A DNA stretch of 36,955 bases from a virus: IMG/VR virus record IMGVR_UViG_3300002231_000004, positions 1 to 36,955 of that record. One strand, written 5' to 3'. Of this stretch, positions 4,706-12,995 are shown piece by piece. Made by a program: the position numbers and the translations under genes. A model generated the notes under the pieces. It ran no database searches, was not told where the DNA came from, and worked only from the letters and a program-made list of their open reading frames with translations. Each line of letters starts with the position of its first letter. Positions within the stretch are counted from its first letter, which is position 1.

Positions 4706-4875
4706 TAGCGCTGAATCTCCTCCAGGGTGAACCAGGTCGTGTTCTCGCGGCACTCGTCGTGATCTCTGCACAGCCAGACGAGCCCATACACACGGACCAC
4801 GGCAGACTGAGGGAGCCACCTCTGGCAGCAGCGACACTGATGGGTGGGCGCCGTGCGGTCACTCGTCTCCGGCAT
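4705..4875 (-). CDS. Small zinc-finger-like protein upstream of TerL
   Basis: 56 residues: starts MPETSDRTAPTHQCRCC and ends TWFTLEEIQR. Cysteines CRCC near residue 14 and C36/C42 with H39 could form one metal site. ATG at 4875 has GGAGG seven bases upstream, inside the end of the preceding gene, and overlaps that gene by 17 bases. Its TAA overlaps the TerL ATG as TAATG. This two-sided coupling shows it is a real gene and fixes the TerL start. Function unknown. Neighbours suggest either a packaging accessory role or membership of the run of small zinc proteins at 5673-7228. Confidence 0.75.
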   Translation of the reverse strand: MPETSDRTAPTHQCRCCQRWLPQSAVVRVYGLVWLCRDHDECRENTTWFTLEEIQR

Positions 4876-5176
4876 CGTCATCCTCCATCCATTCGACCTG
4901 GCCGCTTCGTCTTGCGTTCTTTTGCCGAACCTCTGCTCTCAATTGCTCATCTGTCATGTGTACCTTTCTCCAAAATACACATTCTGGTATCGGGTCATCA
5001 TGTCCCAACGACTCGCGCCGGAGAGACGCTGCGAGGCGAACGTGCTTCTTCGCCTCTTTGGCATACCCTCTACTGCGCCACTCTCTCGCCCAAGCGATGT
5101 GGGACCTGATTCGCCCTTTGAGATTTTCTTTCATTCCAGCCACTGCCTCGCTGGGGGATATGGTAGCTATATCCAT
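4859..5176 (-). CDS. Hypothetical protein with acidic tail
   Basis: 105 residues. The first half is helical and basic (MKENLKGRIRSHIAWAREWRSRGYAKEAKKHVRLAASLRRE), the C-terminus is acidic (VEWMEDDDAGDE). ATG at 5176 overlaps the TerS stop by one base (TGATG) with GAGGAG upstream; a GTG one codon earlier is less likely. The acidic tail is encoded by the same 21-base sequence that ends the neighbouring TerS-like gene. Not recognised. Its place between TerS and TerL suggests a packaging-related or DNA-binding role. Confidence 0.7.
   Translation of the reverse strand: MDIATISPSEAVAGMKENLKGRIRSHIAWAREWRSRGYAKEAKKHVRLAASLRRESLGHDDPIPECVFWRKVHMTDEQLRAEVRQKNARRSGQVEWMEDDDAGDE
4875..4895. repeat. 21-bp direct repeat, copy 1
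   Basis: Identical to 5195-5215. It encodes the EWMEDD acidic tail of the gene at 4859-5176 and supplies the GGAGG ribosome binding site used by the small gene starting at 4875. Confidence 0.9.
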
Positions 5177-5673
5177 CACTCCTCCTCGCCTCCCTCGTCA
5201 TCCTCCATCCATTCGTCCGAATACTCCGGTCCGCTGGTCACTTTGCTTGGAGGCGGCTTGTCTGGCTCGGAGGCTTTCGGTGGAGCCCAATCTGCGCGCG
5301 CCTGGTGCTGGAGCCATGCGAGTGCGTACTGTGGGTAGATCTCCTCGCGGGTCTCGCGAACCTCCTCGACCACGCGCATCCTGCCGTCCTCGCCTCGCTC
5401 CAGCTTCTTTCTGATGACCTTTTTCTTGGTGCCGGTGAATGCTTTCTTGATGCATTTCTCGGCCTGTGCGCGGGTGTAAGCCCTCGCTTCTTCTATAGTA
5501 TCCAGCAAGTCTATGTAGCGCTCGTCACCGCTGCGACCCCTCTGGAGCCAGCTGTACCACGTACTCCGGGGGACTCCACAGTTGAGGGCGGCGGTGACCG
5601 GAGCCTCCCCCGCTTTAATCCGTCGGACGATCTGGCCCTGTAGCGCTGGTGTCAGTGTCGTGGGTCGTCCCAT
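5176..5673 (-). CDS. terS: Terminase small subunit-like DNA-binding protein
   Basis: 165 residues. A helix-turn-helix at about 8-40 (LQGQIVRRIKAGEAPVTAALNCGVPRSTWYSWLQRG) has the form seen in many phage small terminases and related HTH proteins. A charged helical middle and an acidic C-terminus (EWMEDDEGGEEE) follow. Small terminases bind the packaging initiation site and hand DNA to TerL. Position two genes upstream of TerL agrees. The start is ATG 5673, overlapping the upstream stop as TAATG. A plain HTH regulator is the alternative, but the position makes TerS more likely. Confidence 0.75.
   Translation of the reverse strand: MGRPTTLTPALQGQIVRRIKAGEAPVTAALNCGVPRSTWYSWLQRGRSGDERYIDLLDTIEEARAYTRAQAEKCIKKAFTGTKKKVIRKKLERGEDGRMRVVEEVRETREEIYPQYALAWLQHQARADWAPPKASEPDKPPPSKVTSGPEYSDEWMEDDEGGEEE
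5195..5215. repeat. 21-bp direct repeat, copy 2
   Basis: Identical to 4875-4895. It encodes the EWMEDDE segment near the C-terminus of the TerS-like protein. The two copies lie 320 bases apart in neighbouring genes and in the same reading phase. Confidence 0.9.
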
Positions 5674-9143: not shown

Positions 9144-9343
9144 GACGCCTCCTCAACGATCTCCAAGTGCCGCGCTGGCACGATCTCGGCGCCCCCGTCC
9201 TCGTATCGGACGAGGTAGCTGTGGTGTGTCTCTGCGGTCTTTTTCGTCCGCCCGATCTTGGAGGTCAGGACGTTCTCGATCACACCACGACGGGGGACGA
9301 GTCGGACGGGGGTTCCCTCAGCGATGGGGGTTGCGTCGCTCAT
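9140..9343 (-). CDS. Small SH3/KOW-like protein
   Basis: 67 residues. The segment GTPVRLVPRRGVIENVLTSKIGRTKKTAETHHSYLVRYEDGGAEIVPARHLEIV resembles small phage KOW/SH3-barrel proteins, with an initial GxxVxLVPRRGV strand-turn and a second YEDGG turn. It overlaps the methylase gene upstream by four bases. No catalytic residues are visible; binding nucleic acid or a partner protein is the likely job. Confidence 0.65.
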   Translation of the reverse strand: MSDATPIAEGTPVRLVPRRGVIENVLTSKIGRTKKTAETHHSYLVRYEDGGAEIVPARHLEIVEEAS

Positions 9344-9897
9344 AACACCTCCAAGATCGTACCGAGCCGTCTGAACACCTCACGGAAACGCTCACGCTCC
9401 GGCCCGAAATAAAACACCGCCTGCCCCTGTCGTGGAGTCCCGCCCTCGTCGCGGGGCCCCCAGAATCGGAGGCGCCCACAGAGGAGACAGAGAGAGGAGC
9501 AGTCAGCGAGGAGGTCTCTAAACCAGCGCGTCTCGGTGGAGTTATTCACGAGCACCACGGCCTGCTTGGTGCGACCACTCGCCCACTCCTCTAGTAGTTT
9601 CTCGACGAAGAACGGTAGCAGATCCGAGCTGTAGGGAGGATTGAGAAACACTCTCCCACGCCACTCCTGGAGCAGCCCGTTGTCTTTCTGGGTGAAGAAC
9701 CAGTTGGCCTCAACCACGCTGTTGGCGCGCGCGCAGCTCGCCGGGTCGAGATCAATCTGACCCATCGCCGTACGAGCTGCCACGATGATCGGCTCGGGGG
9801 TGTACCAGTCGTTGGAGTCGGCGCTGGAGGCCTGGATCGTCAGGCCTGGGATGGTGAGCTGGATCGTCAGGCCTGGGATGGTGAGCTGGGTGGTCAT
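9340..9897 (-). CDS. dam: Phage DNA N6-adenine methyltransferase (Dam type)
   Basis: 185 residues from ATG 9897, which overlaps the upstream stop as ATGA. The motifs of the phage Dam family (PF05869) are clear: DWYTPEPIIVAA (about 30-41), IDLDPASCA (48-56), and catalytic VFLNPPYS (83-90). It transfers methyl from S-adenosylmethionine to adenine, often in GATC, to evade restriction or mark replication sites; the exact target cannot be read from sequence. GATC is frequent throughout this genome, notably at 19030-19071. The N-terminus carries a duplicated nonapeptide (LTIPGLTIQ twice) coded by a 27-base tandem repeat. Confidence 0.9.
   Translation of the reverse strand: MTTQLTIPGLTIQLTIPGLTIQASSADSNDWYTPEPIIVAARTAMGQIDLDPASCARANSVVEANWFFTQKDNGLLQEWRGRVFLNPPYSSDLLPFFVEKLLEEWASGRTKQAVVLVNNSTETRWFRDLLADCSSLCLLCGRLRFWGPRDEGGTPRQGQAVFYFGPERERFREVFRRLGTILEVL
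9832..9885. repeat. 27-bp tandem repeat, two perfect copies
   Basis: Units 9832-9858 and 9859-9885 are identical and in frame within the methylase gene, giving LTIPGLTIQ twice near its N-terminus. The unit length is a multiple of three, so copy-number change would leave the enzyme in frame. Confidence 0.95.
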
Positions 9898-10244
9898 GAT
9901 CCAACTCCCCGGAGCGCGTCCAGCAACTCCTCCCGATTCACCCACGCGGGGTGCTGCTCGTCTGGGACCTCGCGGTGGAGGCCGCGCTCATCGCAGCGTT
10001 TTCTGTAGAACTCTAGATCCCCGACTTCGTCACCGAGAGCCCATCCCGCCTCGCCGAGTTCCTCCACGTAGGGCATTCGCCTCATCACAAAGTCCGCGGT
10101 GCGGATTGCGCCGATGGGCTTGCCGTACCACTCGCAGTGATCGCACCAGGCGCCGTATGCCTCGCGGAGCAGCTGCCAGCGGTCTCGGGCGTCGAGCCGG
10201 ACGCGGTTGGGTGGGAGCTTGGGGTTGGAGTCTGGTGCGCTCAT
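9894..10244 (-). CDS. Hypothetical protein with one CxxC
   Basis: 116 residues. Contains CDHC near 34-37 and another Cys near 84 (RKRCDERG), so a metal site is possible but incomplete. The rest is charged: DRWQLLREAYGAWCDHCEWYGKP, then EELGEAGWALGDEVGDLEFY. Not recognised. ATGA overlaps with the methylase and with the upstream HTH gene put it in the same translation unit. Confidence 0.65.
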   Translation of the reverse strand: MSAPDSNPKLPPNRVRLDARDRWQLLREAYGAWCDHCEWYGKPIGAIRTADFVMRRMPYVEELGEAGWALGDEVGDLEFYRKRCDERGLHREVPDEQHPAWVNREELLDALRGVGS

Positions 10245-10789
10245 GATGCCTCCCGCTGCGCCAGAAGCGTGCCAGCTTTCAGATCGGGCCCCACGTCACT
10301 CAGCAGCCATTGCGCTGGTTGAGGCCAGTCTTTGGGGCGAATTTCGTCCGATTCGATCTGTCGGAGGGTGTCCACAGAGAGCCAGAGCAGGTCAGCGAGT
10401 TGGGAGAGCAGAAGGCCCTCTGCCATCCTCCAGCGTCGGATCTGCTCGCCTGGTGTCAGGTCAGCCCAAGCGATGTGTCCACAGAGATGAGAGGTGTCGG
10501 GATAAACAACGTCTAACCTCTGTTCAACCTTCTGGGGGGTTGAACAGGTAGGTTGAACGCCCTCTCCCCCTTGGTATTCCTTACTTTGTTCAACCGTACA
10601 ACCTTGATCAACCTGTATCTCCGCGCCCCTGCGCGCGCGGGGGCCCGTGTGAGGATTTGGGTTGTCGAGGTTGAACGGTTGAACAAAGCCGCTTGTACCA
10701 ACGCCCTGAGGGCGTTCAACCTCTGTTTTTGAGGTTGAACACAGGTTGAACGGTTGAACAGAGCCGCTTGTGCCAACGGTGTCAGACAT
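10241..10789 (-). CDS. HTH protein with origin-like repeats in its coding region
   Basis: 182 residues from ATG 10789, which has GAGGG six bases upstream (the ATG two codons earlier is too close to it). The C-terminal half holds an XRE-type helix-turn-helix: TPGEQIRRWRMAEGLLLSQLADLLWLSVDTLRQIESDEIRPKDWP (about 113-157). The N-terminal half is low-complexity and carries the repeated peptide GTSG(S/F)VQPFNL because its DNA is a dense array of GGTTGAAC sites. This layout, a DNA-binding protein with iterons inside its own gene next to a replicative primase-helicase, is like lambda O. It is a candidate replication initiator that binds its own gene. A transcription regulator binding the same array is the alternative. 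Confidence 0.65.
   Translation of the reverse strand: MSDTVGTSGSVQPFNLCSTSKTEVERPQGVGTSGFVQPFNLDNPNPHTGPRARRGAEIQVDQGCTVEQSKEYQGGEGVQPTCSTPQKVEQRLDVVYPDTSHLCGHIAWADLTPGEQIRRWRMAEGLLLSQLADLLWLSVDTLRQIESDEIRPKDWPQPAQWLLSDVGPDLKAGTLLAQREAS
10522..10759. repeat. GGTTGAAC array, candidate replication origin
   Basis: Ten exact copies of the 8-mer GGTTGAAC lie in 238 bases. Seven are on the plus strand (10538, 10551, 10669, 10677, 10733, 10744, 10752) and three are inverted (GTTCAACC at 10522, 10588, 10714). One-mismatch forms are at 10596 and 10606. Two pairs are back to back (10669/10677 and 10744/10752) inside a 35-base unit repeated 75 bases apart with two differences. By chance about 0.01 copy would be expected here. 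Iteron-like density next to the primase-helicase gene suggests an origin or a large operator. Confidence 0.75.
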
Positions 10790-12995
10790 TTTCATCCCTC
10801 ACGGTGTAGTAGGTTGAGAGGCGGCCCTTGGCGGCGTAACCTCGGCGATCTCTGTGTCGAATCCAGCCGATACGCTGCATCATCATCCCGACGCGGGTCT
10901 GCGCCCTGCGATCCTGTTTCTCCACAGAGAGGCCGATCGCGTCGCTGAGGATCTGGGCTGGCGTCACCTCGGCTTTCCCGAGGAGCCAGTTTTGGATCAG
11001 CTCCTCCCACGGGTCGTCCACCTGGCGCGCCTCCTGCTCCTCTCGGAGCAGCGCGCGCTGTTCGTTGTCTGTGGGCCACCAGCCGACTTTTTTTTTGAAC
11101 AGGTCTACCGCCTCGGCCCAGAGCTGGTCTCTGTCCTCGATCAGCCTCTGCTGATCGATGGCGGTACAGAGGACGGGCCAGTAGCGCCGCCCCCCGCTGG
11201 CGTCTCGGATATAGTCAGAGTGATTCACCGTCCCCGCGAACACGCAGGTCCGTGGGACCTCTGCCATGGTGCGAGCGTAGGGAGCCCGATACCGATCCAC
11301 GGAGGACGAAAAGAACGCCTTGCTCGCGCTGGATTCTGTTCTCATCAGCGAGTCCAGCTCTGCGAGTTCCACGATCCACTTGCCTCTAATGTGCAGATAT
11401 GCGTCTTTGTCGCCGATGCTCACCTGGGTATCGGCGTATCCCTCTCCTCCTAAGATGGCCAGACATCGGCTCTTGCCGAGCCCCTCGGCCCCCTCTAAGA
11501 CGAGAACATGATCGGCCTTGCAGCCAGGGCTGTAGGCTCGCGCCACGGCGCTGATCATCCACCAGCGGCCCACCAGGGAGAGATACCTATCGGACTGCTG
11601 TCCGAAGGGCTGGGCGCCCAAGTAGGACCGCAGCCACGTCGCCAAGCGCTCCGTCCCGTCCCAAGACAAGCCGTTGAGGTAGTCCTGGAGTGGGTGCCGC
11701 TGGTGATGTTTGGCCGCAACCAGCACAGCCCCCGCGATGGGCTCGGTGTTTAGGCTCAGCGCCCACCGCTCTGCGAGCCAGTAGGAGATCCGCAGGTAGT
11801 CGTCATCCTGGAGGCCACACGGGTAGTCTCGATCTGTCCCCCCATAATCCTGTGGAAACGGCGGGGCCTTCGTGAACACGGGCATCTGCGCTGCGGCGTC
11901 GTAGGCCAGGACTCCACCCCACCGGCGATCGTGGCTCAGGATGCGAGCGGCGTTCAGTCCCTCGCGTCGGAGGCCGATCCGCTCGCCGTCTTTGTCATGC
12001 TTCCACAGGAGAGCGTCGCGCCAGTCGGAGGCGCCCCCGTCTTCGGGAGGTGGAGACATGGGATCGTCGGGCGGTGGGGGCTGTGCACCATTGCTGCGCC
12101 GCCCCTCGAACACCTCGCCACAGTCTGTGATCGCTCGGTCGATCGTCCGATCGCCGTAGGTCCGGCCACCGCCAGCGTTGCGATCCCATTTTGGGCGCAT
12201 CAGGGCACTCGACCGAAACGCCCGATCCATCCGGCTGGCGTCGCGGTTGAACCAGAACGCCAGTGAATTGCAGAGCGCCAGGTCCGCGCTGCTGTGGTCG
12301 CCGCCGTGTGCGCCCAGGTCTCCACGATCGTAAAGCGCGACGAAATCAGATCCGTTGCGCGAGCGTCGGGCGATGTCGAGCAGCTCGCGATCGTCGAGGT
12401 CGATCGGCTGGCTGGGTGGCAGTGGAGCAGCTGCTCGCGGCTTCTCTCTGGGGAGAAAATATTTCTCGTGTAACCAGTCGAGCGCGGCCTGGCCCTCGCC
12501 GATCTGACCAGGCAGATCGGCCATCACGTCACCCGTGATCGTCAGATAGCGCGGCGAGCTGTGGTCATACAGCTCCACCCACTTCTCGTCGGTCCCCTTC
12601 CCGCAGCGATGGGGAGTGCCGAGCGTGATCAGCCGCAGGCCCTCACCGCTGGGGCTGCGCTCGATGTAGGCGCAGTCAGCGAAGTGCTTCAGGATCTCGG
12701 CCGCCGCCTCGTTTGGGCCGCCGTATCCGGTGCAGTGATCCAGGTCCACGCCCGTCAAGCCGTCCCCTTTACAGAAGACGAAGCCGAGGCCGTCATAATC
12801 GCCACGCTGGTAGGTGTCGAGCGCGCGCTCGAACGATGCCCAGGTGCTGGGGTCGTTCGATTTCCCCATGCCGCCGTGGGCGCTGTACGGGACCTTGGTG
12901 GGCTTGCCACCCTTTCGGGTCTCCCGCCGCCACAGCACCCACTGCTCCAGGGCTTTCAGCTGCCCCGGTATGCTCTGTGGGTATAGGCTGCTCAT
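10782..12995 (-). CDS. Primase-polymerase fused to VirE/SF3-type helicase
   Basis: 737 residues. The N-terminal PrimPol-like domain has ALEQWVLWRRETRKGGKPTKVPY, GVDLDHC with D84/D86 as metal ligands, and RSPSGEGLR (113-121), as in NrS-1-type primase-polymerases. A primase C-terminal helical segment is seen at about 238-272 (LCNSLAFWFNRDASRMDRAFRSS, then LMRPKWD). The helicase domain of VirE/D5 type has Walker A GAEGLGKS (502-509), an acidic strand IVELAELD (541-548), and FAGTVNHSDYIRD with GGRRYWPV. It should prime and unwind at the phage origin. No separate DNA polymerase is encoded, so host polymerase or this PrimPol must extend. It overlaps recT upstream and the HTH gene downstream. Confidence 0.9.
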   Translation of the reverse strand: MSSLYPQSIPGQLKALEQWVLWRRETRKGGKPTKVPYSAHGGMGKSNDPSTWASFERALDTYQRGDYDGLGFVFCKGDGLTGVDLDHCTGYGGPNEAAAEILKHFADCAYIERSPSGEGLRLITLGTPHRCGKGTDEKWVELYDHSSPRYLTITGDVMADLPGQIGEGQAALDWLHEKYFLPREKPRAAAPLPPSQPIDLDDRELLDIARRSRNGSDFVALYDRGDLGAHGGDHSSADLALCNSLAFWFNRDASRMDRAFRSSALMRPKWDRNAGGGRTYGDRTIDRAITDCGEVFEGRRSNGAQPPPPDDPMSPPPEDGGASDWRDALLWKHDKDGERIGLRREGLNAARILSHDRRWGGVLAYDAAAQMPVFTKAPPFPQDYGGTDRDYPCGLQDDDYLRISYWLAERWALSLNTEPIAGAVLVAAKHHQRHPLQDYLNGLSWDGTERLATWLRSYLGAQPFGQQSDRYLSLVGRWWMISAVARAYSPGCKADHVLVLEGAEGLGKSRCLAILGGEGYADTQVSIGDKDAYLHIRGKWIVELAELDSLMRTESSASKAFFSSSVDRYRAPYARTMAEVPRTCVFAGTVNHSDYIRDASGGRRYWPVLCTAIDQQRLIEDRDQLWAEAVDLFKKKVGWWPTDNEQRALLREEQEARQVDDPWEELIQNWLLGKAEVTPAQILSDAIGLSVEKQDRRAQTRVGMMMQRIGWIRHRDRRGYAAKGRLSTYYTVRDENV

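Follow-up and report, generated by a model that had tools for sequence, protein, structure and literature searches.

A Dyad of Opposed Iterons Directly 3' of a VapE-type PrimPol-helicase Gene Is a Putative Phage Replication Origin

Introduction

PICI replication origins lie immediately 3' of rep and consist of two sets of iterons with an AT-rich centre (PMC6092414). In SaPIs the C-terminal domain of Rep is reported to act on iterons directly downstream of its own gene, and the C-terminal domain of Cch2, a protein related to SaPI Rep, binds the direct repeats of its own system (PMC7581432). In pRN1 a 100-nt stem-loop 3' of the PrimPol-helicase gene is, besides the operon, all that is needed in cis (PMC4234260). 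In P4 the crr element, with repeats in both orientations, starts 46 bp 3' of the alpha gene, and replication needs a further site, ori1, about 4.5 kb away. Here we describe an iteron array at the corresponding position in IMG/VR record IMGVR_UViG_3300002231_000004, analysed over its whole length of 36,955 bp (the window). Modules of this kind, pri-rep-ori, have been described before; the present one varies from them in its dyad layout, in its GC-rich spacer and in overlapping an open reading frame.

Results

An Iteron Array Follows the PrimPol-helicase Gene

The record resembles a tailed phage and not a phage satellite, with genes for large and small terminase subunits and tail proteins and a weak match to a portal protein. 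Other genes encode a RecT-like annealing protein, a Dam methylase and an exonuclease. The upstream part of the Dam methylase ORF (9340-9945, minus strand) encodes a short tandem peptide repeat, QLTIPGLTIQLTIPGLTIQ.

The array lies on the 3' side of the PrimPol-helicase gene and starts 23 bp after its stop codon. Table 1 lists the features of the locus. A recount agreed with the preliminary description in both number and coordinates: ten exact copies of GGTTGAAC, seven direct and three inverted, fall within 238 bp. The two near copies it mentioned were also found, each with one mismatch (GGTTGTAC at 10596 and GGTTGATC at 10606, both on the minus strand), and its repeated 35-base unit proved to be a pair of 36-bp repeats. 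The proposed genome-wide count gave 11 exact copies of GGTTGAAC, compared with a mean of 0.57 and a maximum of 3 copies per shuffled window; 10 of the 11 lie in the array. The one remaining copy sits in a palindrome-like sequence, GGTTGAACC.

Table 1. Features of the locus and of related arrays. In the layouts, read on the VapE strand, < and > are site orientations, numbers are gaps in bp and the spacer is set between double lines.
Feature	Position	Strand	Remarks
PrimPol-helicase, 737 aa, proposed initiator	10782..12995	-	NrS-1-like PrimPol/HBD N-terminal part, VapE-type helicase, C-terminal winged helix
VapE-like helicase domain, residues 440-658	11022..11678	-	PF05272, E 2.9e-70
Predicted C-terminal winged helix, residues 662-732, proposed iteron-binding domain	10800..11012	-	
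Sole GGTTGAAC outside the array	12245..12252	+	Isolated, within the primase-helicase gene
GAGGG Shine-Dalgarno-like sequence	10796..10800	-	6 nt ahead of ATG 10789
HTH ORF overlapping the array	10241..10795	-	ATG at 10795 or 10789; coding signature in 10244-10519 only
Iteron array, putative replication origin	10522..10759		10 exact GGTTGAAC + 2 one-mismatch; two opposed halves, central spacer between
Exact GGTTGAAC sites	10522-, 10538+, 10551+, 10588-, 10669+, 10677+, 10714-, 10733+, 10744+, 10752+		
Array half adjoining the primase-helicase stop	10669..10759		10752+, 10744+, 10733+, 10714-, 10677+, 10669+
Distal array half	10522..10613		10606-, 10596-, 10588-, 10551+, 10538+, 10522-
36-bp direct repeat, copy 1	10668..10703	+	
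36-bp direct repeat, copy 2	10743..10778	+	94% alike
Central spacer, 55 bp	10614..10668		69% GC; at dyad centre (about 10636)
Short alternating purine-pyrimidine tract TGCGCGCGCG	10630..10639		Weak counterpart of relatives' longer tracts
Layout, window			< 0 < 3 < 11 > 29 < 0 < ==55== > 2 > 0 > 29 < 5 < 8 >
Layout, L107			< 9 < 14 > 24 < 1 < ==86== > 1 > 1 > 24 < 14 > 3 >
Layout, L106			< 10 < 12 > 26 < 1 < ==95== > 1 > 26 < 11 > 2 >
Long alternating tracts in relatives	L030 124, L093 323, L099 130, L090 94, L108 279		bp after VapE stop

The preliminary description missed that the array is an imperfect dyad of ~230 bp. The region aligns to its own reverse complement. One pair of arms (10584-10607 and 10665-10688) is 92% complementary, and a second pair (10550-10576 and 10696-10722) is 81% complementary. 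Two sets of iterons are present, as in pri-rep-ori modules, but the sequence that they flank is GC-rich and not AT-rich.

As single-stranded DNA, the array has a folding energy of -71.4 kcal/mol, against -35.6 +/- 3.8 kcal/mol in shuffles. A predicted fold of this strength would be expected of an RNA-level structure, such as an attenuator or terminator, and could also be a chance palindrome. We consider both extremely unlikely: an Rfam scan gave no match, a consensus scan of 10200-10900 detected no terminator-like site, and the iteron counts are far above those in shuffles. A single large RNA-like structure was likewise rejected, as the strength of the fold comes mostly from the inverted iterons. 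Columns outside the iterons are paired at 43% in the dyad register and at about 25-37% in neighbouring registers, a modest excess.

Similar Arrays Recur 3' of VapE Genes

Eighty related viral contigs were scored and dereplicated to 33 VapE loci, including the window. An array was scored where a 300-bp stretch held four or more identical 8-mers, and the 3' zone was taken as 0-700 bp past the VapE stop codon. Such arrays occur in the 3' zone of 21 of the 33 loci and anywhere else in 4, even though the flanks are several-fold longer. With at least six copies required, the figures are 10 and 0. An exact array is absent from the 3' zone of 12 of the 33, among them L004, the closest match of the first search. 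In the relatives the next plausible gene begins just past the array.

Marinobacter phage PS3, Paenibacillus phage Bob, Komagataeibacter pKNA06, Gluconobacter pGO128 and a Roseomonas plasmid also have an array immediately behind the VapE gene; in Pseudomonas phage Haddon it follows after one more gene. Each of these six has its own motif. The array of PS3 (L024) occupies 5240-5473. Of eight further phage records from distant hosts, six show arrays within the 3' zone: those of Staphylococcus, Listeria, Corynebacterium, a Streptococcus satellite, a Streptococcus phage and, more weakly, Rhodobacter. The motifs of the arrays share a loose core, as seen in GGTTGAACA, GGTAGAACA, GTAGGACAG, GTGGGACAG, CTGGGACA and TGGTGACA. 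All 20 arrays folded as single-stranded DNA were more stable than their shuffles (z from -2.0 to -10.8), with most control segments near 0.

In 19 of the 33 loci, the 3' zone contains the strongest alternating purine-pyrimidine tract; random placement would put about 10% of such tracts there (binomial p = 2e-11). Several VapE relatives have alternating CG/CA/GT tracts of 24-48 nt, the strongest of their loci, within or beside the iteron array. A Z-DNA tract was rejected as a feature of the window itself, where the tract ranks second of 90 in 8 kb and fourth in the whole window; the feature is strong in the relatives only.

Some individual loci deserve separate mention. L093 has fifteen CTGGGACA sites at 27-282 bp after the VapE stop, with the sub-pattern '< 12 > 3 >' occurring three times, and resembles a locally amplified origin. 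Two Pseudomonas-group relatives contain small clusters of GGTGAACA or GTGAACTG that resemble the P4 type 1 repeat (L063, +1214 to +1373, and L068, +1308 to +1363, after the VapE stop). Bordetella phage BIP-1 (L109) was not counted as support, since just four inverted copies of CGAGGCAA follow its replication gene, at a distance of about 470-560 bp; on its reverse strand (4791-4894) these appear as two tandem TTGCCTCG and two inverted copies. Iterons have been discounted for BIP-1 and a stem-loop proposed (PMC4234260). Exact tandem GGTTGAACGGTTGAAC was tried as a marker in viral contigs and abandoned, since only one of the 18 loci it found has a recognisable primase-helicase relative and most are chance occurrences.

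Spacing Depends on the Relative Orientation of the Sites

Layouts were drawn from exact 8-mers together with those having one mismatch, taking the longest gap as the spacer. The search for conserved spacing proposed in the preliminary description was productive. Across 20 arrays with different motifs, the gaps depend on how neighbouring sites are oriented, with medians of 1 bp for tandem sites (pairs lying 0-3 bp apart), 13 bp for diverging sites and 26 bp for converging sites (Kruskal-Wallis p = 7e-17; within-array permutation p = 2e-4, the minimum possible with 5000 shuffles). The two halves have opposite majority orientations in 14 of the 15 arrays that could be scored. A few arrays (L025, L026, L062 and L093) fit the layout poorly.

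The spacing rules also bear on a reading that had been offered as the alternative to an origin, namely that the array is a novel autoregulatory operator; by way of it, either the HTH protein or the PrimPol-helicase would control the operon. Initiators of iteron systems often act as regulators too, and the array does place dense candidate DNA-binding sites within the operon, with the HTH gene adjoining. Nothing further was found in its support. The same spacing rules hold whichever genes lie downstream, arrays are always placed 3' of the helicase gene and not at a conserved promoter, and the scan of 10200-10900 detected no promoter-like site any more than a terminator. We regard an operator as very improbable.

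The HTH Reading Frame Is Probably a Bystander

The ORF that overlaps the array also overlaps the primase-helicase ORF by 14 bp; the HTH gene lies directly downstream of the PrimPol-helicase gene, as first described. Its assignment as an XRE-type HTH protein is retained in a weaker form: the match to XRE-type models is below the curated cut-off (HTH_3, E = 2.8e-4). The preliminary description likened the locus to lambda O, with the HTH protein as an initiator that binds iterons in its own gene. A frame that stays open through the array and begins with a Shine-Dalgarno sequence and an ATG, together with the weak HTH match, speaks for such an initiator. Nevertheless, the iteron part of the frame scores as non-coding in a codon-usage test, with -0.16 per codon; the HTH part reaches +0.10, and other genes range from +0.10 to +0.22. 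The frame remains open in 15% of shuffles in which the iterons are fixed, and its GC3 is 0.52, compared with about 0.7-0.8 in most neighbours. From these three values, selection for coding has probably not acted on the array; it may be translated within the HTH frame. There is no in-frame ATG, GTG or TTG between 10789 and 10426, and translation of the HTH protein may begin upstream of the array or at a non-standard codon. The iteron part is predicted to be disordered, at low confidence, by a single-sequence model.

The comparison with relatives also speaks against an HTH initiator. Searches of phages and viral contigs gave no close relative of the HTH protein. In the relatives of the locus, which keep the array without this gene, no XRE gene overlaps the array; the long ORFs that cross their arrays have no HTH domain as judged by reading. 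In addition, the motif follows the winged helix of the helicase, as described below. An initiator role for the HTH protein is thus highly doubtful, and its gene is probably a bystander.

The Iteron Motif Varies with the Winged Helix of the PrimPol-helicase

The PrimPol-helicase combines a VapE/Rep-class helicase with a primase, as shown by matches to PF05272 and to the NrS-1-type HBD (PF22763) and by homology to 7pds ('PriRep1 with dsDNA', from SaPI), the nearest solved structure (E = 2.8e-88, TM 0.76). The C-terminus has the H-b-H-H-b-b order of a winged helix, confidently so in the predicted model.

Over 34 arrays, motif similarity correlates with winged-helix identity (rho 0.70). With helicase identity allowed for, the partial r is 0.45, compared with 0.10 for the converse, shared ancestry being incompletely removed from both. 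These correlations suggest that the iteron motif tracks the C-terminal winged helix of the primase-helicase. Because the motifs track this domain and the arrays of relatives are free of overlapping XRE genes, we take the PrimPol-helicase to be the probable initiator, as for SaPI Rep and P4 alpha, and not the HTH protein.

Discussion

Many phages and plasmids have an array of the same type just 3' of the gene for this enzyme, as in SaPI/PICI, pRN1 and P4. On this comparison, which gives good support to the origin proposed in the preliminary description, the array is very probably the replication origin of the phage or an essential cis-acting binding site for its initiator, recognised by the winged helix at the C-terminus of the PrimPol-helicase. 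Some observations count against an origin: GC skew does not turn at the array, 12 of the 33 loci lack an exact array in the 3' zone, and there is no AT-rich region for melting. The first came from a check proposed in advance, which was uninformative.

We propose that several copies of the PrimPol-helicase would bind the two opposed sets of iterons through the winged helix, and that the fixed iteron spacing would set two helicase rings face to face across the central spacer. The duplex would open at this spacer, and the PrimPol domain could then prime both strands.

As P4 needs ori1 as well as crr, an array on the 3' side alone may not be the start site. The array could instead be an auxiliary site like P4 crr, needed in cis while synthesis starts elsewhere; the equal placement of crr, 3' of alpha with ori1 far off, favours this. 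Conversely, the window contains no second GGTTGAAC cluster of the kind that P4 would predict, in a record that may be incomplete, and the 3' site is described as the origin itself in PICIs and pRN1. An auxiliary role is therefore unlikely, and we retain the reading of the array as an origin or essential initiator-binding site.

We tentatively suggest, as a possibility that falls somewhat short of an even chance, that the arrays represent a single undescribed origin design common to VapE replicons, whether phages, satellites or plasmids. The design would consist of mirror-image iteron halves with gaps of 0-3 bp (tandem), about 13 bp (diverging) and about 26 bp (converging), on either side of a spacer that is not plainly AT-rich and in which an alternating purine-pyrimidine (Z-DNA-prone) tract is frequent. 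The winged helix and the iteron sequence would drift together while the geometry stays fixed, and in the present phage the origin would also lie within a translated frame. If so, the origins of a large class of tailed phages and cryptic plasmids could be read from sequence, just 3' of the VapE gene. The PICI iterons, P4 crr and the pRN1 stem-loop, which were described separately, would then be instances of one design, and a large stem-loop and a set of iterons would be different aspects of a single dyad. The design would also permit direct tests of how a self-loading PrimPol-helicase assembles and melts DNA, GC-rich spacers included, and a simple origin-decoy test. The phages and plasmids compared here have much the same arrangement.

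Among the known systems, pRN1 orf904 shares with this locus an archaeo-eukaryotic PrimPol-helicase with a C-terminal winged helix and a large dyad or stem-loop origin 3' of the gene (PMC4234260). The difference is that pRN1 is reported to be without iterons, whereas the dyad described here is largely built of them. The P4 alpha/crr system is similar in having a primase-helicase with a DNA-binding winged helix (cited in PMC4234260) and repeats of mixed orientation 3' of its gene; on the alpha strand the P4 type 1 repeat is GGTGAACA, close to GGTTGAACA. P4 differs in its Toprim primase (PMC4234260), in having two direct 120-bp crr repeats instead of an inverted dyad, and in its additional need for ori1. 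As in lambda O, iterons lie within an ORF of the replication region. Unlike in lambda, the ORF that overlaps them probably does not encode the initiator, and the predicted DNA-binding domain is on the helicase-primase itself. By description, the array may also be likened to the Streptococcus phage Sfi21 ori, a short noncoding element of the replication module (302-bp, PER) that behaves as an origin when cloned (reviewed in PMC6356513).

SaPI/PICI pri-rep-ori modules have the same VapE-type helicase, homologous to 7pds, the same origin position 3' of rep and two sets of iterons (PMC6092414, PMC7581432). Iteron binding by a C-terminal domain, as in those elements, is what the predicted winged helix and its co-variation with the motif point to here. 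In contrast to SaPI/PICI, the present locus belongs to a seemingly complete tailed-phage gene set, its PrimPol is fused to the helicase, the centre is GC-rich and the array overlaps the downstream ORF.
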